Below are positions 7,766 through 42,378 of a stretch of DNA of 46,282 bases, piece by piece. Under the pieces are notes generated by a model. It made no database searches and was not told the DNA's origin. It saw nothing but the letters and a program-made list of their open reading frames with translations. Made by a program: the position numbers and the translations under genes. Source of the DNA: Bacteroidia bacterium. Lineage in GTDB: Bacteria; Bacteroidota; Bacteroidia; Bacteroidales; VadinHA17. The DNA lies in the NCBI GenBank assembly GCA_026391595.1, contig JAPLDY010000092.1:1-46282 (forward strand). The letters are read 5' to 3'. Every line of letters begins with the position of its first letter. Position 1 is the stretch's first letter.

Positions 7766-7778
7766 TGCCAAATTGTCA
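7766..7778. promoter_or_regulatory. TGNCA-N3-TGNCA element upstream of grpE
   Basis: TGCCA-AAT-TGTCA. The element ends 13 nt before the GG of the -24/-12 promoter, exactly the spacing seen upstream of hsp20. Its centre is about 45 nt upstream of the predicted start site. It also forms the left arm of a 7-bp inverted repeat (7765-7771 with 7790-7796). Probable operator or activator site; the binding protein is unknown. Confidence 0.55.
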
Positions 7779-7789
7779 ATTCTTGCCGG

Positions 7790-7806
7790 TTGGCAGACAT
7801 TTTGCT
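7790..7806 (+). promoter_or_regulatory. Sigma-54 (-24/-12) promoter of grpE-dnaJ
   Basis: TTGGCAGACATTTTGCT matches the sigma-54 consensus TTGGCAcgnnnnTTGCW. The GG (7792-7793) and GC (7804-7805) are separated by exactly 10 nt. The predicted start is near 7817, 24 nt before the grpE ATG. No CIRCE/HrcA inverted repeat is present. Sequence match only; no expression data. Confidence 0.7.
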
Positions 7807-7840
7807 GATTAAGGAAATATCAATCGAAAATTTAATAGTA

Positions 7841-8476
7841 ATGGTGAAGAAGAAGACTCCTGAAGAGGAACAGGAAAGGCATGACGAAACATCTGATATT
7901 AAGGCGGATAACCATATTAAGAAAGATACTGACCAGACCGGATCAGTCGCTCCACCTTCAGAGGACCCTGCAGGAGAGGCTGATAAACCAGCCGGGGAAG
8001 AGGATAAAGCATCTGACAAAGTTGTAAAAGAGGGTAGCCTGCCTGAAGAAAAACTGGCAGAAATGCAAGACAAATATCTGCGTCTGTCAGCTGAATTTGA
8101 TAACTACAGAAAGCGTACCCTGCGCGAGAAAATGGAACTTTCAAAATATGCAAACGAAGATGTTCTCCTTAAGATCCTTCCGGTAATGGATGATTTCGAA
8201 AGAGCCCTTGTAAATATGGAAACTGCGACTGATTGCGCGGCTATAAAAAGCGGAATCGACCTTATTTACGTGAAGCTAACTGATTTCCTCAAACAGAACG
8301 AGATAAGTGAAATAGAATCTCTCAATTGTGCTTTCAATGTCGACCTTCACGATGCCGTTACCAAGACTCATGTTGAGGATGAATCTAAAAAAGGATTGAT
8401 AGTCGATGTTGTTAAAAAAGGATACTATCTGAAGGACAAGGTAATAAGACATGCTAAGGTTGTAATAGGAGAATAA
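7841..8476 (+). CDS. grpE: GrpE nucleotide-exchange factor
   Basis: Cochaperone that releases ADP from DnaK and so works with DnaJ in the Hsp70 folding cycle. It has 211 residues. A long acidic, low-complexity N-terminal region (to about residue 75) leads to a coiled coil ([28 protein letters not shown] is the central helix region, residues about 71-98) and then the beta domain with [11 protein letters not shown] and the terminal [16 protein letters not shown] signature. The ATG at 7841 is chosen because it falls 24 nt after the predicted sigma-54 transcript start; the frame is open back to 7790, which is inside the promoter. dnaJ follows after 4 nt. dnaK is not in the window. Confidence 0.95.
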
Positions 8477-8480
8477 TTGC

Positions 8481-9629
8481 ATGGAAAAAAGAGATTTTTA
8501 TGAGGTTCTCGGTGTATCCAAAAATGACACCAAGGATGAGATCAAAAAGGCCTACAGAAAGCAGGCTTTGAAATATCATCCTGATAAAAATCCTGGAGAC
8601 AAGAAGGCTGAGGAAAACTTCAAGGAGGCTGCTGAAGCCTATGAAGTCCTGAGCAACGATGAAAAGAAAGCCAGGTACGATCGTTTTGGTCATGCAGGTA
8701 TGAGCGGAGCCAGTGGCGGATTCAGTGGCGGTGGAATGACAATGGATGATATTTTTTCCTCCTTTGGTGATATTTTCGGTGATGCATTCGGAGGTTTCGG
8801 TGGATTCGGTAACAGCAGACGAAGCTCACGCAGAGTAAACAAGGGAACCAACCTGAGAGTAAAAGTCAAGCTTTCTCTTAATGAAATAGCCAATGGCGCT
8901 GAAAAAAAGATCAAAGTCACAAAATACGATACATGCGCTGCCTGCGGGGGAACTGGCGCTGCTGATTCAAACAGCATTTCAAGTTGTGCAACCTGCCACG
9001 GATCAGGACATGTGACCCGGCTTACAAATACCATACTCGGGCAGATGCAAACTTCGTCGGTTTGTCCGGCATGCGGTGGAGAAGGAAAGACAATAACCAG
9101 AAAATGTCCTTCGTGCTATGGCGAAGGAGTTGTTCAGAAAGAAGATATTATTAAGATAAATATCCCTGCAGGGGTTGGTAAAGGGATGCAGATGACTGTC
9201 AATGGAAAAGGCAATGCCCCCCGTCGTGGCGGTGTAAACGGCGACCTTCTTGTAGTTATTGACGAAGAAGAGCATCCTGATCTGATAAGGGAGGGTAACG
9301 ACCTGATTTACAATCTTTTTATAAGCATCCCAGATGCAGTCCTGGGGACGCACGTAGAGGTGCCTACAGTTGATAATAACGTAAAAATAAAAATTGAACC
9401 CGGCACTCAGCCAGGAAAGATTCTGCGTCTCAGGGGAAAAGGCCTGCCGGAAGTGAACGGCTATGGCCACGGAGACCTTCTCGTTAACGTCAATGTATGG
9501 ATACCCAGGAACCTGAACAGGGAGGAAATCAAGATCATCGAAAAATTCAGGGAGTCCGGCTCTTTTACACCAAACCCCGATAAAGACGATAAGGGTTTTT
9601 TTGAAAGGATGAGAGGGTACTTCGAGTAA
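8481..9629 (+). CDS. dnaJ: Chaperone DnaJ
   Basis: Hsp40 cochaperone that delivers unfolded clients to DnaK and stimulates its ATPase. It is a full-length type I DnaJ of 382 residues. The J domain has H33-P34-D35, followed by a Gly/Phe-rich linker (about 72-112). Four zinc-finger repeats start near residue 152: [24 protein letters not shown] and CPSCYGEG. The client-binding beta domains and a dimerisation tail end the protein. It lies 4 nt after grpE and clearly shares its transcript, so it is probably under the same sigma-54-like promoter. Confidence 0.97.
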
Positions 9630-9678: not shown

Positions 9679-10587
9679 ATGCCACTTTTCGAAGCAAAGA
9701 ATGTAACCAAGATGTTCGGGGATTTCACGGCACTTGATAACGTCAGCATTTCGGTGCCGGAACGATGCATCTACGGGCTTCTTGGACCAAACGGTGCCGG
9801 GAAAACCACTTTGATCAGGATAATCAATCAGATAACCGGTCCCGATTCAGGAGAACTTTTCCTTAATGGCAAAAAGCTTAAACCTGAAGATGTTGCAACA
9901 ATAGGCTACCTGCCTGAAGAACGCGGCCTGTACAGAAAAATGAAAGTCGGCGAAGAGGCCGTTTACTTTGCCCAACTGAAAGGACTTCCAAAAGCTGAAG
10001 CCATAAGAAGGCTTAAGTACTGGTTTAAAAAACTGGATATGGTCGACTGGTGGGGGAAGAAAGTGGAAGAGCTTTCCAAGGGAATGCAGCAGAAGGTTCA
10101 GTTTATAACAACTATCCTTCATGAGCCAAAACTGATAATCTTTGATGAACCATTCACCGGATTCGACCCCGTCAATGCAAACACCATCAAGAATGAGATC
10201 CTTTTCCTGAGGGAAAAAGGCGCCACAATTATCTTTTCAACCCATAACATGGCTTCTGTTGAGGAATTATGCGATAATATTACACTTATCAATAAGGCAA
10301 AAACCATTCTTGAGGGAAGCGTGGATGAAATAAGGAGCAAATGGGCTGCAAACGAGTATGATCTTATTCTCCATGGAGATGTCAAAATACAGGGAAATGG
10401 CCAGTATAATATACTTAAACAGGTATTTGAAAATGACAGATCTACCGTAAGGCTGAAAACAGTCAGTGATATCTCGACAAATGAGATCCTGAATAATATC
10501 ATGAAATCAGGGAAAATCATTTCTTTTAATCCTGCCCTTCCATCGATGAACGAAATATTCATCAGGGTTGTTGAATCACGCAACTAA
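9679..10587 (+). CDS. ABC transporter ATP-binding protein (NatA-like)
   Basis: A 302-residue ATPase subunit of an ABC-2 type exporter. Walker A GPNGAGKTT at 36-44, the Q-loop region YLPEERGLYRKM, signature LSKGMQQK near 134, Walker B LIIFDEP and the H-loop STHN are all intact. The C-terminal 80 residues form the extension typical of the DrrA/NatA group. The next gene, 30 nt downstream, is the matching permease; NatAB-like pairs are proposed to export Na+ or other small solutes, but the substrate here is unknown. It starts 49 nt after dnaJ; an imperfect TACTTTTA in the gap could be its own promoter. Confidence 0.92.
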   Translation: MPLFEAKNVTKMFGDFTALDNVSISVPERCIYGLLGPNGAGKTTLIRIINQITGPDSGELFLNGKKLKPEDVATIGYLPEERGLYRKMKVGEEAVYFAQLKGLPKAEAIRRLKYWFKKLDMVDWWGKKVEELSKGMQQKVQFITTILHEPKLIIFDEPFTGFDPVNANTIKNEILFLREKGATIIFSTHNMASVEELCDNITLINKAKTILEGSVDEIRSKWAANEYDLILHGDVKIQGNGQYNILKQVFENDRSTVRLKTVSDISTNEILNNIMKSGKIISFNPALPSMNEIFIRVVESRN

Positions 10588-10617: not shown

Positions 10618-11973
10618 ATGAATAAGGTATCTGTTATAATAAAAAGAGAATATCTGACAAGGGTCAGGAAGAAATCATTTCTCGTAATGACAATTCTTGC
10701 TCCATTGCTGATGGCATCTCTCATCATTATTATGCCTGCAATGATGGTTACCGGCAATAAGGAGTTCAAGAAAATAGCTGTTATCGACGACGGAGCCAAC
10801 ATATATGGAACTGCAATTCCCGATACAAAGGATGCAGACTTTATATACCTGGGGAACGCAGACAAAAACGCACTGATACAGAATTTTGATTCTGCAGGAT
10901 ATTATGCAGTTCTTTATATTTCTCCGAAATCAGAAAATTCCCCGATAATCTATTCCAAGAAACAGCCTCCGATTATGCTGCTCGATCACATTTCAGGATC
11001 ACTTGAAAAAGAGATTGAAAAAACGAGGCTGCTTCAGTACAACATTGAGAATCTTGATTCGATCCTCAAACAGATAAGGACACAGGTTGTACCCGTCACA
11101 AAAATAGTCGACGAAGCCGGGAAGCAGACTGAAACCAGCACAGGGATAGCGATGGCTCTAGCCTATATCGGCGGATTCGTTATGTATATGCTCGTATTCA
11201 TGTTCGGCGCACAGGTTATGAGAGGCGTCATTGAAGAAAAAGTCAGCCGGGTGGTTGAGGTTATTGTATCATCCGTGAAACCGGTACAGCTTATGATGGG
11301 AAAGATCATAGGTGTTGCACTGGTTGGTCTTACACAGTTCATGATCTGGGTCATCCTGACAATGGGAGCTGTCGCCGTTCTCAAATCGGTGGTCCTCAAG
11401 AAAACCAATATGACTGAGATTACACAGAACATAACTCAAAGCGTTATGACAGAGAATCAGACGCCAGCCCCGGCATCTGCTACACCAGCCACTCAAATAT
11501 CTCCGGAAATGGCAGAGTTTTCAAAGCTCTTCGACAATGCAATGAACCAGAACTGGCCCCTGATAATATTATCATTCATTTTCTATTTTATTACCGGCTA
11601 CCTTCTTTATGCATCTGTCTTTGCGGCGATAGGGTCGGCTGTCGATAATGAAACTGAAACACAGCAGTTTATGCTGCCTGTTACAATACCTATTATTCTG
11701 GGCCTTATTGTCGCAATGGGAACAATGCAAAATCCTGAAAGCCCTCTTTCCTTCTGGTTTTCAATGATTCCATTGACTTCACCCATAGTTATGATGGCAA
11801 GAATTCCTTTTGGCGTACCGGCCTGGCAAATCATTCTGTCAATGTCCCTGATGGTGGTTACATTCCTTGCTTTTGTATGGATGGCCGCCAAGGTTTACCG
11901 GACAGGTATCCTTATGTACGGCAAAAAAGCTTCCTGGAAGGAAATGTGGAAATGGCTGAGATATACGGGATAG
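10618..11973 (+). CDS. ABC-2 type transporter permease (NatB-like)
   Basis: A 451-residue membrane subunit partnering the preceding ATPase. An N-terminal amphipathic region (IIKREYLTRVRKKSFLV) leads into the first helix, followed by a large extracytoplasmic domain (about residues 45-180) and then five or six helices. There is a Pro/Ala/Thr-rich loop (about 280-298: TPAPASATPATQ). This arrangement is typical of ABC-2 (PF12698-type) permeases such as NatB and YhaP. The stop codon TAG runs straight into a heptamer repeat array, so the 3' UTR is repeat-derived. Confidence 0.9.
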   Translation: MNKVSVIIKREYLTRVRKKSFLVMTILAPLLMASLIIIMPAMMVTGNKEFKKIAVIDDGANIYGTAIPDTKDADFIYLGNADKNALIQNFDSAGYYAVLYISPKSENSPIIYSKKQPPIMLLDHISGSLEKEIEKTRLLQYNIENLDSILKQIRTQVVPVTKIVDEAGKQTETSTGIAMALAYIGGFVMYMLVFMFGAQVMRGVIEEKVSRVVEVIVSSVKPVQLMMGKIIGVALVGLTQFMIWVILTMGAVAVLKSVVLKKTNMTEITQNITQSVMTENQTPAPASATPATQISPEMAEFSKLFDNAMNQNWPLIILSFIFYFITGYLLYASVFAAIGSAVDNETETQQFMLPVTIPIILGLIVAMGTMQNPESPLSFWFSMIPLTSPIVMMARIPFGVPAWQIILSMSLMVVTFLAFVWMAAKVYRTGILMYGKKASWKEMWKWLRYTG

Positions 11974-12003
11974 GCGACCGGCGACCGGCGAACAGTGACC
12001 GGC
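11973..12003 (+). repeat. Heptamer tandem array abutting the permease stop codon
   Basis: Starting at the G of the TAG stop, the sequence has a clear 7-nt period: GGCGACC at 11973-11979 and again at 11980-11986, GGCGAAC at 11987-11993, AGTGACC at 11994-12000, then GGC. One of four heptamer arrays in the window that begin directly at a stop codon. Confidence 0.75.
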
Positions 12004-12013
12004 CAAAAAAGAT

Positions 12014-12029
12014 CCCCTCCCGGGAGGGG
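12014..12029. repeat. 16-bp GC-rich perfect palindrome
   Basis: CCCCTCCCGGGAGGGG is a perfect palindrome, followed by AAGGGGGTGGG. It looks like a short member of the CCCCC...GGGGG intergenic family seen at 13237, 30901, 30986, 44080 and 46017. It lies 31 nt upstream of the response-regulator start and could also fold as a hairpin in the leader. Confidence 0.6.
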
Positions 12030-12060
12030 AAGGGGGTGGGTTCATTTAATTAAAAGAATA

Positions 12061-13236
12061 ATGTCCAAGATCTTAGTTATTGATGACGAGAAGGCGATCC
12101 GGAACACTCTGAAGGAGGTCCTTGAATACGAGAAGCATGAAATTGATCTCGCAGAAGACGGACCTACGGGACTTGAACTTTTCTCAAACAACACATATGA
12201 CATTATCCTCTGCGACATCAAAATGCAGAAGATGGACGGCATTGAGGTTCTCCAGAAAATTATGGAGATCTCCACAGTCACGCCCGTAATTATGATCTCA
12301 GGTCACGGAAATATCGACACAGCTGTTGATGCAATAAAGAAGGGAGCTTTCGACTTTCTGGAAAAACCTCTTGATCTTAACAGGCTACTGATCACCATTC
12401 GCAATGCAAAGGATAAATCCACATTGATAAACCAAACTCAGGTGCTGAAGAACAAAGTCAGCAAAATATATGAGATTGTCGGCGAGTCTGATGCTATCCT
12501 TAAGTTGAAGGAGATGATCGACAGGATAGCGCCCACTGAAGCAAGGGTTCTGATAACCGGTGCAAACGGTACCGGCAAGGAACTTGTGGCTCACCAGATA
12601 CACGAAAAAAGCAGCAGGGCAAAAGCACCGTTTGTTGAAGTAAACTGCGCAGCCATCCCTTCGGAACTTATTGAGAGTGAGCTGTTCGGACATGAGAAAG
12701 GATCATTTACTTCTGCTATAAAGCAGCATATCGGGAAATTTGAACAGGCTAATGGGGGAACCCTGTTCCTAGACGAGATCGGCGATATGAGCCTGTCAGC
12801 ACAGGCTAAAGTGTTGCGTGCCCTCCAGGAGAACAGGATAACCCGGGTAGGCTCCGACAAGGATATACAGGTAAACGTAAGGGTGATAACCGCTACCAAT
12901 AAAAACATAAAAAAAGAGATCGAAAGCAACGGTTTCAGGGAAGATCTTTATCACAGACTGAGTGTAATCCTCATTCATGTACCTTCTTTAAACGAGCGCG
13001 AAGAAGATATACCTCTTCTTGCGGATCATTTTAACTCACTGATCTGCAAGGAGTACGGCATGAGCAAGAAGAGTATCAGAAAAGATGCAATAAAAGAACT
13101 TCAGAAAATTCAGTGGACCGGCAATATCCGGGAGTTCAGGAATGTACTGGAACGACTGATTATTCTCTGCAAGGACGAAATAACCGGAGCTGATGTTCTG
13201 GCATATGCCCGGCCGGTTTCAGCTGGAAATGTCTGA
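12061..13236 (+). CDS. Sigma-54-type response regulator (receiver + AAA+), no HTH
   Basis: A 391-residue regulator. The receiver domain (1-120) has D9-D10 and phosphoacceptor D52. The AAA+ domain (about 135-375) has Walker A GANGTGK at 167-173, Walker B GGTLFLDEIGDM and the R-finger region FREDLYHRL. The sigma-54 contact loop, usually GAFTGA, is GSFTSA at 214-219. The protein ends 15-20 residues after the AAA+ lid, so the Fis-type DNA-binding domain normally present (total about 450-470) is missing. It may act from solution without an enhancer site, or rely on a partner. The ATG at 12061 starts the conserved SKILVIDDE; the upstream open frame is in repeat DNA. No histidine kinase is nearby. 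Related HTH-less regulators appear to be common in Bacteroidetes. Confidence 0.92.
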   Translation: MSKILVIDDEKAIRNTLKEVLEYEKHEIDLAEDGPTGLELFSNNTYDIILCDIKMQKMDGIEVLQKIMEISTVTPVIMISGHGNIDTAVDAIKKGAFDFLEKPLDLNRLLITIRNAKDKSTLINQTQVLKNKVSKIYEIVGESDAILKLKEMIDRIAPTEARVLITGANGTGKELVAHQIHEKSSRAKAPFVEVNCAAIPSELIESELFGHEKGSFTSAIKQHIGKFEQANGGTLFLDEIGDMSLSAQAKVLRALQENRITRVGSDKDIQVNVRVITATNKNIKKEIESNGFREDLYHRLSVILIHVPSLNEREEDIPLLADHFNSLICKEYGMSKKSIRKDAIKELQKIQWTGNIREFRNVLERLIILCKDEITGADVLAYARPVSAGNV

Positions 13237-13300
13237 CCCCCCTGCCCCTCCCGATACGTTTTCGCTCCGCTCAAACTATCGGGACAGGCTCTAAAGGGGG
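13237..13300. repeat. CCCCC...GGGGG intergenic palindrome element
   Basis: Outer arms CCCCC (from 13237) and GGGGG (13296-13300) enclose an inner stem CCCGATA (13250-13256) / TATCGGG (13277-13283), followed by ACAGGCTC. It lies directly after the response-regulator stop and 14 nt before aspA. Same layout as the elements at 30901 and 30986. Confidence 0.75.
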
Positions 13301-30810: not shown

Positions 30811-30900
30811 GCTAGATTTTTTGGAATTACATTAATACCCAAAGTGCTACTCAGTGCATGTTTGGTTTGCAGTTCTTCCCATCCTTTCATACGTACTCAT

Positions 30901-30959
30901 CCCCCAAGCCCTCCCGCTGAAGCGGGACAGGCTCTTCTCTGGTAAACCAAAGAAGGGGG
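30901..30959 (+). repeat. CCCCC...GGGGG intergenic palindrome element, copy 1
   Basis: CCCCC (30901-30905), inner stem TCCCGCT (30912-30918) / AGCGGGA (30921-30927), then CAGGCTCTTC and GGGGG (30955-30959). It occupies the gap between the AI-2E gene and hsp20 together with an inverted copy at 30986. Confidence 0.75.
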
Positions 30960-30985
30960 TTTAACGCATTATAAAACAAGCACTT

Positions 30986-31044
30986 CCCCCTCTTTGCTTC
31001 AGCAGAGAGAGCCTCTCCCGACTCGGCGGGAGGGATGCAGGGGG
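30986..31044 (-). repeat. CCCCC...GGGGG intergenic palindrome element, copy 2 (inverted)
   Basis: Same layout in the opposite orientation: outer CCCCC (30986-30990) / GGGGG (31040-31044), inner stem CTCCCG (31015-31020) / CGGGAG (31027-31032). Read on the minus strand, the inner stem is followed by AGGCTCTC as in copy 1. Confidence 0.75.
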
Positions 31045-31065: not shown

Positions 31066-31078
31066 TGTCATATTGTCT
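31066..31078. promoter_or_regulatory. Distal TGNCA-N3-TGNCA-like element of hsp20
   Basis: TGTCA-TAT-TGTCT (last base deviates). The centre is near -77 from the predicted start. The block CCTGTCATATTGTC here matches CCTGCCAAATTGTC upstream of grpE at 12 of 14 positions. Confidence 0.45.
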
Positions 31079-31097: not shown

Positions 31098-31110
31098 TGC
31101 CATTATGACA
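31098..31110. promoter_or_regulatory. Proximal TGNCA-N3-TGNCA element of hsp20
   Basis: TGCCA-TTA-TGACA. It ends 13 nt before the promoter GG, the same distance as upstream of grpE, and lies 32 nt (about three helical turns) from the distal copy. Confidence 0.55.
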
Positions 31111-31121
31111 TATATATTGTT

Positions 31122-31138
31122 TTGGAACGGAACTTGAA
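31122..31138 (+). promoter_or_regulatory. Sigma-54-like (-24/-12) promoter of hsp20
   Basis: TTGGAACGGAACTTGAA against the consensus TTGGCACGnnnnTTGCW: GG (31124-31125) and GA (31136-31137, usually GC) with exactly 10 nt between. Two mismatches, one in each box. Predicted transcript start near 31149. No TAnnTTTG element is seen nearby. Confidence 0.6.
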
Positions 31139-31196
31139 AATAGAGAGATACAAACACAAACAAAGTGTATAACTTAAAATAATGGAGGACAAAACT

Positions 31197-31619
31197 ATGT
31201 TACCAAAAATTACCAGAAGAAATTACAATCCGTTCCTGTCAAACCTGTTTGATGACGATTTTTTTCCTGTACTTACCAACAGGACCAGTTCAATGCCGGC
31301 TGTGAACATTAAGGAGAATGAAAAGAATTTCACCCTTGATCTTGCAATTCCGGGGATAGACAAGAAAGATCTGAAGATCGACATCAATGAAGATGTTCTT
31401 ACGATCTCGTCAGAGACCAAGAATGAAACCGAAGATAACATCGACGGTTACAAGAGAAAAGAATTCAGTTATTCATCTTTCTGCAGGAGCTTCTATCTTC
31501 CTGAAAACGTAAATAAGGAAAAGATCGCTGCATCCTATAAAGATGGGATACTGTCGGTAGAGCTTCCAAAACAGGAAGAAGAAAAAAGCAAGATTTCCAA
31601 GCAGATCAAGATTTCGTAA
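31197..31619 (+). CDS. Small heat-shock protein Hsp20 (alpha-crystallin family)
   Basis: ATP-independent holdase that keeps unfolding proteins soluble for DnaK/DnaJ/GrpE. It has 140 residues. A short N-terminal arm (NPFLSNLFDDDFFPV) is followed by the alpha-crystallin domain (about 35-130: VNIKENEKNFTLDLAIPGIDKKDLKIDI, FCRSFYLPENVN, and the closing AxYKDGILSVELPK) and a short tail. The start is the ATG at 31197, because a strong GGAGG (31184-31188) lies 8 nt before it; a clear Shine-Dalgarno is unusual in this phylum. An in-frame ATG at 31182 overlaps that site. It is expressed from a sigma-54-like promoter and followed by a bidirectional terminator shared with the flavodiiron gene. Confidence 0.93.
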   Translation: MLPKITRRNYNPFLSNLFDDDFFPVLTNRTSSMPAVNIKENEKNFTLDLAIPGIDKKDLKIDINEDVLTISSETKNETEDNIDGYKRKEFSYSSFCRSFYLPENVNKEKIAASYKDGILSVELPKQEEEKSKISKQIKIS

Positions 31620-34469: not shown

Positions 34470-36593
34470 TTAAGTGGTTTTGAACAGATCAGGCGTATTT
34501 CCGGGTGTATCAGTATCCGGGTTAGCCTTTTTCTTTCTTGTTTTCTTTTCTGCCTTTATTTCCGCCTCAGCCGCAATGATATTCCCTTCAGGATTTTTTA
34601 TTCCGGCCTCTTTCAATTCTTTCTTTTCTTTCTGCTCTTTCACCAGCTCTGCCTTCCTTTTGCCGAAGATCCTCTCAAGGTCTTCGCTGAAAATAACCTC
34701 TTTTTCAAGAAGAAGCTCTGCAAGCTCAGTAAGACCTTTCATATTCTTTTTCAGAACCACCTTGGCACGGGCAAACGATTCATCAATGATCTGTTTAACC
34801 TCGAGGTCGATGATCTCTGATGTCTTTTCGCTGTAAGGTTTTGTAAATCCGAAATCAGACTGGCCCGATGAATCATAGAAACTTACATTGCCCACTTTAT
34901 CGCTCATTCCGAAGAATGCAACCATAGCGTATGCCTGTTTTGTTATCTTCTCGAGGTCGCTGAGTGCTCCTGTAGAGATCTTTTTGAAGACAAGCTCTTC
35001 AGATGCACGTCCGCCCAGGGCATAAGCCATCTCGTCAAGCAACTGCTCACGTGTGGTTATCTGCCTCTCCTCAGGAAGATACCAGGCAGCACCCAGGGCC
35101 CTTCCCCTTGGTATTATTGTGACCTTTACCAGAGGACTTGCATGTTCAAGGAGCCAGCTTACAGTGGCATGTCCGGCTTCGTGGTATGCTATTGTCTTTT
35201 TCTCCTGAAATGAAATTATCTTGTTCTTCCTTTCGAGTCCGCCGACAATCCTGTCTATGGCATCGAGGAAATCCTGTTTTTCAACCTCAGTTTTATTTTT
35301 CCTTGCAGCTATTAGGGCCGACTCGTTGCACACATTTGCAATATCTGCACCTGAAAATCCGGGTGTCTGCTTTGCAAGGAAGCTGACGTCAAGATCTTTT
35401 GCCATCTTAATGGGGCGCAGGTGAACTTTAAATATAGCCTCGCGCTCTCTAAGGTCAGGCAGTTCAACATGTATCTGCCTGTCGAAGCGGCCTGCGCGCA
35501 GAAGTGCCCTGTCGAGTATGTCTGCCCTGTTTGTTGCTGCCAGAATGATAACTCCCATGTTTGTACCGAAACCATCCATCTCTGTAAGAAGCTGATTTAG
35601 AGTGTTTTCGCGTTCGTCATTTGAGCCGAAATTGACATTCCTGCCTCTGGCCCTTCCGACGGCATCTATTTCGTCGATAAAAACGATACAGGGTGCTTTC
35701 TCCTTTGCCTGCTTGAAAAGGTCTCTCACCCTTGAGGCTCCGACACCAACAAACATCTCAACAAAATCAGATCCCGAAAGTGAAAAGAATGGAACGTTTG
35801 CCTCACCTGCGACTGCTTTTGCAAGAAGTGTTTTCCCTGTTCCCGGAGGACCTATAAGCAACGCTCCTTTAGGTATCTTCCCTCCCAGCTGGGTATATTT
35901 CTTGGGGTTTTTAAGAAAGTCAACGATCTCCATTACTTCAGTCTTTGCCTCTTCAAGTCCGGCTACATCGCTGAAGTTGATCTTTACGTTGGTATCCTTG
36001 TCAAATATCTGAGCTCTTGATTTCCCCACGCTGAAGATCCCTCCTGCACCACCGGCACCACCACCGCCGCCTGACATCCTTCTCATTATGAGTATCCATG
36101 CAAGGATCAGAATTGCAGGCAGTATGATCCATGGAAGTATAAATTCAGCGAAGTAATTCCTTCTTTCATCATTCCCGGGATAGACCATATTGCTCTTGGT
36201 ATAACCGGCACTTTCCTGTGTGGCAGTAAGAAAGTTTTCGAAATTCTGCTCATCACCGAATCTGATAGAAAACTGAGGCTTTGGCACTTGTTGCCCACCA
36301 AATCCTTTTGACGGCTTGGGAAGATCCGGATACCTGCCCGAACGAATCGCCTCGTCAGTAAGGTAGATCTCAGCCGTTTCTTTATTAATTATAACAATGC
36401 TTTTGATATCGTGGTTCTCAATCATGCTTATGATGGCATTCTTATCTGTCTTCTTCGGAGTTGATTTGGGGTATACGACCTCAAAAAGAAGAATAGAAAT
36501 AAAAAGAATGGCCCAGATCCAGTTGGTGTTGAAACCGGTTTTTATATTCTTGTCGCCCTTTTTTCCGGGTATAATATTTTTATTATCTGCCAT
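34470..36593 (-). CDS. ftsH: ATP-dependent zinc metalloprotease FtsH
   Basis: Inner-membrane AAA+ protease that degrades damaged membrane proteins and regulatory targets. It has 707 residues. Two helices (about 25-43 and 145-170) flank a periplasmic domain. The AAA domain has Walker A GPPGTGKT, Walker B IVFIDEID and the SRH region [13 protein letters not shown]. The zinc site is HEAGH, with a downstream Asp ligand. A Gly-rich patch ([13 protein letters not shown]) lies between TM2 and the AAA domain. The C-terminal tail is long and charged (Lys/Glu-rich, then NTPDLFKTT). It sits 11 nt after rsfS. Confidence 0.97.
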
Positions 36594-36604
36594 AAATCTG
36601 ATCC

Positions 36605-36979
36605 TTACTTAATTTTATCTTTCATCGCTTCAATTTCAGCATCAGCCCAAAGCGATTCAAGGCTGTAAAAACTTCTGTACTCTTCGAGGAAAATATGAAC
36701 TATGACATTGCCATAATCTACAAGAACCCAGTAACAATTTTCAAGACCTTCCACATGTAACGGCTTCTCTCCGGCATCTTTCCGGACTGTATCCTCTACT
36801 GAATCGCAGATTGAATCAACCTGTGTTGCTGATGTTCCATGACAAATAACAAAATAATCAGCTATCTTGTTTTCAAGCTTGCGTAAATCAATCTTAAGGA
36901 CATTATGCCCTTTCTTTTCAAAAATTCCCTTAACTACACTTTTTAAAAGAACATCAGCTTCATCAGATCTTTTCTTCAT
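36605..36979 (-). CDS. rsfS: Ribosomal silencing factor RsfS
   Basis: Binds ribosomal protein uL14 and blocks subunit joining when nutrients are limited. It has 124 residues, the full family length. Core motifs are KIDLRKLENKIADYFVICHGTSATQVDSI, KPLHVEGLENCYWVLVDYGNVIVHIF and the closing YRSFYSLESLWADAE. The ATG at 36979 is chosen over the TTG one codon earlier. First gene of the rsfS-ftsH-cdsA-psd(-flavodiiron) transcript; divergent from birA. Confidence 0.94.
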   Translation of the reverse strand: MKKRSDEADVLLKSVVKGIFEKKGHNVLKIDLRKLENKIADYFVICHGTSATQVDSICDSVEDTVRKDAGEKPLHVEGLENCYWVLVDYGNVIVHIFLEEYRSFYSLESLWADAEIEAMKDKIK

Positions 36980-37028
36980 CAATAATTATCAGTTAGATAT
37001 CAAGCCGCTAAAGTACGAACTTTATCCG

Positions 37029-37036: not shown

Positions 37037-37133
37037 TCACGAAGACCATATTTGCAATTTCAGTGCCAATCCTGGAAAACCCTGATAAATTGGTAGATTA
37101 CTCAAAATATAATCTTATAATCGCCTTGCAATC

Positions 37134-39329: not shown

Positions 39330-39808
39330 TCTTCCTCTCCCCTGTAATCTTTAAGATTTATGGCCGCCGGGACAAAACGCGAGGCATCGCCGCCGCTGCG
39401 TATTATATCGCGTACAATCGAGGAATTGATTGGTGTATGTTCCGGGACTGTCAGCAGGAAAACTGATTCGATATCGTAAGCCATGGCCTTATTGACCTGA
39501 GCGATAGCTCTTTCGAACTCAAAGTCGGCAGCTGTACGTAATCCCCTTAAAATATAATTCGCTCCTTTTCTTTTACAATAGTCAACTGTAAGCCCCTCAT
39601 AATGGTCGATATTTATCCTTGGTTCATCCGCAAACACGCTGGAGATCATTGTTTTTCTCGTTTCCAGCGAATAATAGCTTTTCTTCAGCGCATTGGCGCC
39701 AACGGCAATTATTATTTCGTCAAAAAGGGTAAGAGCACGCCTGACAATTCCTTCATGTCCGATAGTGAACGGATCAAACGATCCCGGGAAAACAGCTATT
39801 TTCTTCAT
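39326..39808 (-). CDS. coaD: Phosphopantetheine adenylyltransferase
   Basis: Fourth step of CoA synthesis: transfers AMP to 4'-phosphopantetheine. It has 160 residues, as expected. Nucleotidyltransferase motifs are PGSFDPFTIGHEGI (TxGH near 14-17) and the C-terminal NSSIVRDIIRSGGDASRFVP; RGLRTAADFEFE is the substrate-binding section. Its ATG overlaps the lon stop (ATGA), so it is translated from the lon transcript. Confidence 0.95.
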   Translation of the reverse strand: MKKIAVFPGSFDPFTIGHEGIVRRALTLFDEIIIAVGANALKKSYYSLETRKTMISSVFADEPRINIDHYEGLTVDYCKRKGANYILRGLRTAADFEFERAIAQVNKAMAYDIESVFLLTVPEHTPINSSIVRDIIRSGGDASRFVPAAINLKDYRGEED

Positions 39809-42267
39809 TCGAATGATATGTTTTTGGGATTACTTACTTTCTGCTTAAGGAGCGCCTGCTCAAGGACTTCCATTATTGTTTCCACATAATGGAACTTCAG
39901 TCCTCTTATATATATCTCCTTTATGTCCTCAACATCCTTGCGGTTCTCTTCGGATAAAATCAGCTCCTTAATGCTGGCACGTTTAGCTGCAAGTATCTTC
40001 TCCTTTATCCCGCCTACCGGCAGCACTTTACCCCTCAAAGTAATCTCTCCGGTCATTGCCAGATACTTCCTTACTTTTCTTTGGGTAAAGGCCGAAGCAA
40101 TTGATGAAGCCATTGTTATCCCGGCAGAAGGACCGTCCTTAGGTATTGCCCCTTCGGGAACGTGAATATGGATATTCCATTTTTCGGCAAAATTATCCGG
40201 AAGTCCGAGAAGATCTGCATTTGCCTTGAGGTACTCAAGTGCAATTATCGCCGACTCCTTCATTACCTCGCCAAGGTTCCCGGTAAGGGTAAGTTTTCCC
40301 GTACCCTTGCTGAGGCTTGTCTCGACAAACAATATCTCACCACCTGCTGCAGTCCAGGCAAGTCCGGTCACAACGCCGGCCTGATCATTGCCAGAATAGA
40401 TATCACGGTTGAATCTTGGCGGGCCCAGCATCTCACCCATATCCTTTTCAGAAAGGGAAGGAGTGTATTTGGTATTTGAAGCAATGTTCTTGGCTGTCAC
40501 CCTTACGATCTTTGCAAGGCGCTTGTCGAGTTCCCTGACTCCCGATTCCCTGGTATAGCGCTCGATCAGCTTTTCCATTATGCCCGGATTTATGATCAGC
40601 TGATCAGGCTTAACTCCATGATTTTCAAGCTGTTTTGGAAGAAGATGTGCCTTTGCTATTTCAAGCTTTTCCTCTACCAGGTATCCTGTTATTTCGATAA
40701 GCTCCATCCTGTCGCGCAGTGCCGGGCTAATGGTTGAAAGTGTATTTGCCGTAGCAATGAAAAGCACCTTCGACAAATCATATTCCAGTTCAATGAAGTT
40801 ATCGAAAAAAGTACTGTTTTGTTCCGGGTCGAGAACCTCAAGGAGTGCTGATGAAGGATCGCCCCTGAAATCCTGTCCTACCTTATCCACCTCATCAAGT
40901 ATAAATACCGGGTTTGACGAGCCGGCCCTTTTTATATTCTGGACAATGCGGCCGGGCATAGCACCGATGTATGTTTTCCTGTGGCCTCTGATCTCTGCCT
41001 CATCATGCAATCCGCCGAGTGACATTCTGACATATTTTCTTCCGAGGGCTTTGGCCACGGATTTCCCCAGCGATGTTTTTCCGACTCCCGGAGGGCCGTA
41101 AAGGCAGAGGATGGGAGATTTAAGGTCGCCCTTAAGCTTAAGCACTGCAAGATGTTCGAGTATTCTTTCCTTTACATCGTCAAGGCCGAAATGGTCAGCA
41201 TCAAGCACCTGGCGGGCATTGTTAAGATCAAGGTTATCCTGGGTATATTCGCCCCATGGCAGATCGAGCAGCGTCTGAATATAGTTTACCTGTACGGAAT
41301 ATTCGGCAGCCGCCGGGTTAAGCCTGTGCAGCTTATCGAGCTCTTTGTCGAATACGTTTTTTACATCTTCCGTCCATTTTTTTGTCTCAGCTTTATTTTT
41401 GTACTCTTCAATCTCCTTTTCAATAGGATTCCCGCCCAGTTCATTCTGTATTGTCTTCATCTGCTGATGCAGAAGGAATTCCCTCTGCTGTTGGTCGAGG
41501 TCGCTCTTTACCTTCGACTGCAATTCATTTTTCAGCTCCAGAACCTGGATCTCCTGTACCAGAAATTCAAGGAGCTGGAAGCCCCGGTCGCGTATACTGT
41601 TTATTTCCAATAACTTCTGTTTGTCCTGCACCTTGATGTCGGTATTGGAACAGATGAAGTTTATGAGGTATGTATTGTTCTCGATATTCTTTATTGCAAA
41701 GGAGGCTTCGGGACTTATATTAGGATTTATTTTGATGATCTTAAGCGAGAGATCCTTCAGTGAGCCTACTATCGCATCGAAGTCCTTGCTCATCTGTTCT
41801 GGCTTGCGTTCCGGCATCGATTTGACCTTGGCAATAAAATAGGGGTCATCAGAAACAAGCTCGCTCAGCACCATTCTTTTACGTCCCTGGATGATGGCTG
41901 TAGTTGAACCATCGGGCATCTCGAGGAGTTTAACGATCTGTCCTATCGTACCCACAGAATGAAGGTCACTGAAACCGGGGTTTTCGAGATCAGGATCCTT
42001 TTGTGCTACGGTACCGACGATCTTATCGCTCCTGTAGGCATCCTTTATAAGCTGTATCGACTTTGGCCGCCCTATTGAAATAGGGAGCACCACACCCGGA
42101 AAAAGCACAGTATTCCTTAGCGACAGTACAGGTATCGTTTCAGGGATCTCAACATCTTCAAGTTCTCCTTCATCGCCATCGGCAATGATGGGGATTATAT
42201 CTCCCTCACCGTCAAGGTTATCCGGAAACAATATTTCGTTATATGTCATTCTGGATTTCTTGTCCAT
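39805..42267 (-). CDS. lon: ATP-dependent protease La (Lon)
   Basis: Cytoplasmic AAA+ serine protease that degrades misfolded and short-lived regulatory proteins. It has 820 residues. The N-terminal substrate domain begins after an acidic leader with [19 protein letters not shown]. The ATPase has Walker [10 protein letters not shown] and Walker [10 protein letters not shown]. The protease domain has the catalytic Ser in [14 protein letters not shown] and a downstream Lys in [13 protein letters not shown]. An AAGGTGA purine stretch on the minus strand sits about 7 nt before the ATG, and a TAATTTTG promoter element lies 26 nt upstream. No CIRCE-like operator or TGNCA element is visible. coaD is coupled downstream. 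Confidence 0.97.
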
Positions 42268-42300: not shown

Positions 42301-42350
42301 CTGAATATTTTAATAAATAAGGTGAAATGAGGAGTTGCAAGGATTGTACC

Positions 42351-42378
42351 AAAAAAAAGGGGGCTTTTATGACCCCCT
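42351..42378 (-). terminator. Rho-independent terminator of rpmE2
   Basis: On the minus strand, AGGGGG (plus 42373-42378) and CCCCCT (plus 42358-42363) form a GC-rich stem around a 9-nt loop, followed by eight T. It begins 22 nt after the L31 stop. Confidence 0.85.

Follow-up and report, generated by a model that had tools for sequence, protein, structure and literature searches.

What reads the short inverted repeat that stands, at one and the same distance, before two chaperone promoters of this Bacteroidia genome? The stretch of DNA analysed (46,282 nucleotides, "the window" in what follows) encodes grpE-dnaJ and hsp20, and the initial annotation had placed upstream of each a TGNCA-N3-TGNCA box ending 13 nt before the GG of a -24/-12 promoter. 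These positions and this spacing are borne out:

7766..7778, plus strand: palindromic box of grpE, TGCCA-AAT-TGTCA (TGCCAAATTGTCA), centred at about -45
7790..7806, plus strand: -24/-12 promoter of grpE-dnaJ, TTGGCAGACATTTTGCT
7841..8476, plus strand: grpE, ATG at 7841 (Pfam GrpE, 5e-40)
8481..9629, plus strand: dnaJ (NCBIfam TIGR02349, 1e-128)
31066..31078, plus strand: distal box of hsp20, TGTCATATTGTCT (32 bp upstream of the proximal one; one mismatch)
31098..31110, plus strand: proximal box of hsp20, TGCCA-TTA-TGACA (TGCCATTATGACA)
31122..31138, plus strand: -24/-12 promoter of hsp20, TTGGAACGGAACTTGAA, GG-N10-GA
31182..31619, plus strand: hsp20 open reading frame (Pfam HSP20, 1.9e-26)

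The grpE promoter is a complete GG-N10-GC element. The hsp20 promoter, described at the outset as a second one of the -24/-12 kind, keeps its position and spacing and departs from the pattern at its end, reading GG-N10-GA rather than GG-N10-GC; GA occupies the same place in 23 of 28 hsp20 upstream sequences of relatives. (A technical note: the hsp20 frame opens with ATG at 31182; the start of its relatives, aligned by eye, matches the in-frame ATG at 31197, which is probably the conserved start.) RpoN is encoded in the genome (PF00309, 7.5e-14, at G000:C53). Neither gene had been credited with the operators of other heat-shock systems, and rightly so: the CIRCE pattern of the HrcA/CIRCE regulon, TTAGCACTC-N9-GAGTGCTAA, has no match in the whole window with three mismatches allowed, and TAnnTTTG does not occur on the coding strand of either upstream gap. 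(Elsewhere in the window, short related intergenic stretches at about 12000-12050, 13237-13290 and 30900-31040, rich in CCCTCCCG and CGGGACAGGCTCT, resemble a dispersed repeat.)

How much of this likeness could be accidental depends on how much of the pattern is specified. The box followed by N13 and GG is found three times in the window, with 0.14 expected, and 1 of 100 shuffles reached three; the third copy, at 41020 within the lon reading frame, was dropped as chance. The same loose pattern is matched 7 times in the whole genome against 3 times for its reversed control, and is consequently weak by itself. Taken by itself, the -24/-12 pattern occurs 4 times in the window, not significantly more often than the 2.3 expected, and its excess in the genome is only moderately significant (23 matches, 8 for the control). 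Decisive against chance is the full element, TGNCAN3TGNCA-N12-TGGNA-N6-TTG: 60 relatives yield 55 matches, 50 of them at grpE or hsp20 by their coordinates, and the reversed control yields none.

The element is widely and unevenly distributed. Of the 395 class genomes scanned, 161 contain it, and the reversed control matched once; the remaining 234 lack a strict match although 392 of the 395 encode an enhancer-binding protein (bEBP), and this is counted against the activator model offered below. A sample of the phylum, made up of 98 genomes of the class and 297 of other classes (rows counted by class), has the full element in 73 of the former and 5 of the latter, the control giving zero. One of the five out-of-class matches precedes DnaK and two precede Hsp20; the other two lie inside reading frames of one family and were set aside. 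Relaxing the pattern by one mismatch in 36 genomes of the genus gives 80 matches against 9 in the control (summed). This relaxed pattern, by which the genome's own htpG site was found, is noisier, and the noise is held against the model; two of these genus matches share one sequence context within a reading frame of 466 aa and were rejected as coding. A stricter pattern, run over the genomes of 84,980 prokaryote species, returned at least 118 stretches, and among the matches listed all 80 loci belong to Bacteroidota, as read from organism names.

Which genes stand behind the element? A search of related genomes had been recommended at the start, with chaperone genes as its expected outcome, and the matches do concentrate before grpE, htpG, dnaK, hsp20, clpB, groES and trxA. 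Among the matches listed there are 139 distinct sites (those with sequence available from the scans of 60 relatives and 395 genomes, not every match), and 109 of them precede htpG, grpE, dnaK, hsp20, clpB, lon or dnaJ. The next gene, identified by blastp comparison with the proteins of the window and with nine representatives (themselves classed by Pfam), encodes HtpG at 48 sites, GrpE at 41, TrxA at 17, DnaK at 8, Hsp20 at 6, ClpB at 3, SecA at 3, LemA at 3, a zinc peptidase at 2, Lon at 2, and DnaJ, MutL and a phosphodiesterase at 1 each, with 3 unassigned; 13 of the 139 thus belong to none of the three groups of chaperones, lon and trxA. The 80 loci among the matches listed from the prokaryote scan are distributed similarly: 78 are at chaperone genes (GrpE 64, ClpB 6, DnaK 4, HtpG 2 and GroES 2), one is at another gene and one at a contig edge.

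Two classes of target deserve separate mention. Thioredoxin is the third commonest (17 of 139 among the matches listed; for example L150, L178 and L233), and links the element to thiol stress as well as to folding stress. Membrane proteins of the LemA family (L235, L243, L244) and of the Zn_peptidase_2 family (L123, L256) recur behind the element and may belong to the regulon. In the source genome itself htpG is preceded by an in-register box with one mismatch; before groES there are an exact distal box, 45 nt from TGG, and a proximal half-site at 12 nt. (The groES distal box, L466:1685-1719, lies within the likely terminator hairpin of secG, GGTGTCAGTTT...AAACTGACACC followed by a T-run; an overlap of terminator and enhancer in the secG-groES gap is possible.)

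The box has a shape. Over 203 sites it is an inverted repeat, TGHCA-N3-TGDCA: the search had left positions 3 and 11 free, yet G occupies the former in only 2 of these sites and C the latter in none. (The p-values for this symmetry are too small, because the sites share descent.) Dyad symmetry is what would be looked for in a bEBP enhancer, and a palindrome of this form is a site such as a homodimer would read.

It also has fixed places. Spacing was examined in upstream sequences fetched by gene family instead of by motif: those of grpE in 50 of 59 GrpE-bearing relatives, and those of hsp20 at 30 loci taken from a longer list of matches. In both sets two sequences lack TGG-N-A-N6-TTG, leaving 48 and 28. 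An exact box stands 12 nt before TGG (that is, 13 nt before GG) in 28 of the 48 grpE upstreams, with single exact boxes also at 13 and at 34 nt; with one mismatch allowed, 34 boxes stand at 12 nt, 5 at 13, and one at each of eight other distances below 60 nt. At hsp20 there are two registers (at most one mismatch): a proximal one, occupied in 16 of 28, and a distal one 43-45 nt before TGG, 31-33 bp from the first, occupied in 21 of 28; 15 have both. Upstream copies are otherwise rare: among the 229 sites of all genes there are 28 further boxes (no more than one mismatch), of which 9 lie at 32 bp, and shuffled upstream sequences have 3.

The enhancers of bEBPs usually lie at about -80 to -150 and tolerate changes of distance. 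The proximal box lies at about -45 and is held there, and hsp20 has a regular second register at about -77. A box that is nearer than the usual enhancer and fixed in its distance suggests direct docking without looping. A single site fixed at -45 is atypical for a bEBP, and is counted against the model.

Three bEBPs are encoded in the source genome at E 1e-30, and one of them qualifies as the candidate. The protein at C233 (G000:C233) is a bEBP of the NtrC/PspF family, with an AAA+ domain (PF00158, 5.4e-67), a C-terminal HTH_8 domain (9e-13), the loop GSFTGA and no receiver, and its gene is followed by lptE, an unnamed gene, secG, groES and groEL. A second, at C139, has the loop GAFTDA and, by eye, an ABC transporter gene beside it; the third is in the window and is considered below. 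The HTH-bearing proteins mostly have GSFTGA or GAFTGA as their loop, and in 12 of them the HTH is conserved almost as well as the AAA+ domain (mean majority per column 0.78 and 0.82, with 0.43 for the linker). Their surroundings also recur: of 11 HTH-bearing loci outside the source genome, 9 follow a miaB-like gene and at least 6 precede an lptE-like gene, as judged by eye (one miaB-like gene was checked, and has UPF0004 and radical SAM domains). The bEBPs of 14 genomes were compared. Five box-positive ones (G312, G054, G299, G428 and G130) have an HTH-bearing bEBP and no other at E 1e-30. Two points are counted on the other side: 1) the bEBP of G130, a genome 86% complete, is cut inside its HTH by the end of a contig; 2) G416 and G084 (0.5 Mb) have only an HTH-bearing bEBP, its loop reading GSFTSA in G084, and no strict match to the element. 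The most likely regulator of the box, judged from sequence, would be this PspF-like bEBP with its Fis-type HTH, encoded upstream of lptE-secG-groES-groEL.

The initial annotation had proposed a sigma-54-dependent stress regulon with a dedicated TGNCA-binding regulator. The regulon finds support in the concentration of chaperone genes and in the fixed spacing at loci fetched by family; that a regulator binds the box we infer. The further idea that this regulator is a repressor or anti-silencer finds no support: an activator fits better, given the palindrome, the second copy about 32 bp upstream and the HTH-bearing bEBP. The reading that we hold to be probable, with some reserve, is that a sigma-54 regulon of proteostasis (heat-shock type) extends through the Bacteroidia, its box bound by the lptE-linked, HTH-bearing bEBP acting as activator. 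One can picture the sequence of events as follows. The sigma-54 holoenzyme would sit closed and waiting at -24/-12. A homodimeric bEBP would occupy the palindrome TGHCA-N3-TGDCA, whose centre is at about -45, and in some promoters also a further copy at about -77. The likeliest protein for this part is the PspF-like AAA+ factor without receiver, which ends in a Fis-type HTH and whose gene lies ahead of lptE and secG-groES-groEL. On the box it would assemble into a ring, and the AAA+ ring would remodel the holoenzyme once misfolded protein accumulates. The signal may be the release of the bEBP from DnaK or GroEL, which is a guess.

Must the protein on the box be a bEBP at all? Another dimeric factor (a co-activator, a DNA bender or a repressor) might bind there, with the bEBPs acting elsewhere or from solution. 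A fixed -45 resembles the site of a class II activator, the bEBP of the window has no HTH and could act from solution, and the window has two further -24/-12 promoters, before rsfS-ftsH and before lon, at which the TGNCA box was sought and not found:

34470..36593, minus strand: ftsH (Pfam Peptidase_M41, 3e-65)
36605..36982, minus strand: rsfS
37053..37069, minus strand: -24/-12 promoter of rsfS-ftsH, TTGGCACTGAAATTGCA, without box
39805..42267, minus strand: lon (NCBIfam TIGR00763, 5.7e-274)
42336..42352, minus strand: -24/-12 promoter of lon, TTGGTACAATCCTTGCA, without box

(TACCA-ATT-TATCA, upstream of rsfS, lies 2 nt out of register and differs from the box at two positions; it was not counted as a box.) The promoters of lon and rsfS-ftsH, good matches that lack the box, may be served by a different activator or by one acting from solution; they also count against the model built on the HTH-bearing bEBP. 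Against a different factor stand the second register about 32 bp upstream, which is the spacing of paired NtrC sites, and the five box-positive genomes in which one HTH-bearing bEBP is the only bEBP at E 1e-30. On balance an unrelated factor is unlikely, although it is the strongest competitor of the lptE-linked bEBP.

The second competitor is encoded beside grpE-dnaJ itself:

9679..10587, plus strand: ABC transporter ATPase, the next gene after dnaJ
10618..11973, plus strand: ABC-2 type permease (Pfam PF12698)
12061..13236, plus strand: bEBP of 391 aa with receiver and AAA+ domains, without HTH, loop GSFTSA (start codon chosen by eye)

This protein might activate the chaperone genes, alone or in a mixed ring with a DNA-binding, HTH-bearing bEBP, for which the mixed complexes of FleT and FleQ provide a precedent. 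Its neighbourhood speaks for it: all 13 members of the genus that were examined have the gene order grpE-dnaJ-ABC-ABC-receiver bEBP, in each of them with the GSFTSA loop and the HTH-less end, at 84-92% identity to the window's copy (DnaJ: 76-87%), and in G224, of another family, an HTH-less bEBP follows dnaJ. This strong conservation is counted against the model built on the HTH-bearing bEBP. Against the HTH-less protein, in turn, are its absence within 8.5 kb after grpE in all 7 other families of the order, its loop, which departs from GAFTGA, and two sets of genomes: the five box-positive ones lack such a protein at E 1e-30, and G391 and G109 have only this type and no strict match to the box. 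As the sole activator it was ranked low, and in either form, alone or in a mixed ring, it is an improbable explanation. That it matters in this genus in some capacity, as partner, modulator or separate activator, is likely.

It is very improbable that the box is part of an extended promoter read by the sigma-54 holoenzyme without an additional protein: strict spacing to -24 would suit that arrangement, but only the grpE site has a box among the 8 strict -24/-12 sites outside long reading frames in the genome, and hsp20 repeats its box about 32 bp further up. Accidental likeness of two short motifs, to which the weak showing of the loose pattern in the genome lends something, is practically eliminated by the reversed controls in the relatives, the class and the phylum sample and by the concentration of the sites at chaperone genes.

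That chaperones are under sigma-54 control in this phylum is already known (PMC9723704; PMC12316311). In Flavobacterium psychrophilum, transcription starts with a sigma-54 motif have been mapped before groES-groEL, lon, dnaK, grpE-dnaJ, htpG, clpB and skp; that organism has one sigma-54 and three PF00158 proteins, and the authors left open which activators serve these genes, their SM4 class (PMC9723704). The SM4 regulon has the same -24/-12 chaperone promoters as are described here, and the accessible text names neither an upstream box nor a chaperone activator. A pair consisting of a sigma-54 regulator and lptE appears in its Table 2 under another promoter class, SM5, and the locus tags are neighbours: 0733 for the sigma-54 regulator, 0732 for LptE, 0729 and 0728 for GroES-GroEL (PMC9723704). 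According to a computed survey, the genes enriched behind sigma-54 promoters in classes of the Bacteroidota include those for GrpE, GroES, GroEL, IbpA, DnaK, DnaJ, HSP90 and ATP-dependent proteases (PMC12316311); these are the same chaperone classes as ours, with no activator site in the accessible text, and its sentence on GrpE and GroES cites a Blattabacterium genome paper (its reference 80). The hrcA-grpE operon of Chlamydia is likewise a heat-responsive grpE operon with a sigma-54 promoter and differs in its tandem sigma66-sigma54 promoters, its HrcA and its AtoC activator (PMC8762339).

The main texts of the openly accessible literature yielded no earlier description of the box or of a chaperone activator. 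As far as that literature goes, the box with its symmetry and fixed registers is new, and so is the candidate activator. A fixed palindromic box and a named candidate make the activator of the Bacteroidota heat-shock switch directly testable. If the reading is right, a core heat-shock set would answer to sigma-54, through an enhancer site so close and so rigid that looping may be needless.

How would such a switch compare with the classical ones? The paired enhancers of NtrC are likewise palindromic dimer sites about 32 bp apart, read by an activator with AAA+ and Fis-type HTH domains; the present promoters have their proximal site at -45, and those of grpE mostly carry just one site, its distance fixed. 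PspF, like the candidate, consists of an AAA+ domain followed by an HTH with no receiver; the candidate would regulate chaperones, not psp. Control by HrcA/CIRCE and by RpoH reaches the same target genes, and the window is without CIRCE. One might go further, and regard the receiver-less bEBP encoded with lptE and groESL as the master heat-shock activator of the Bacteroidota. It would work from a nearby palindrome held at -45, and within the genus it would either form a mixed ring with the HTH-less bEBP or be tuned by it. So extended, the proposal is tentative and on the doubtful side; it would give this protein the place that RpoH has in the Proteobacteria.
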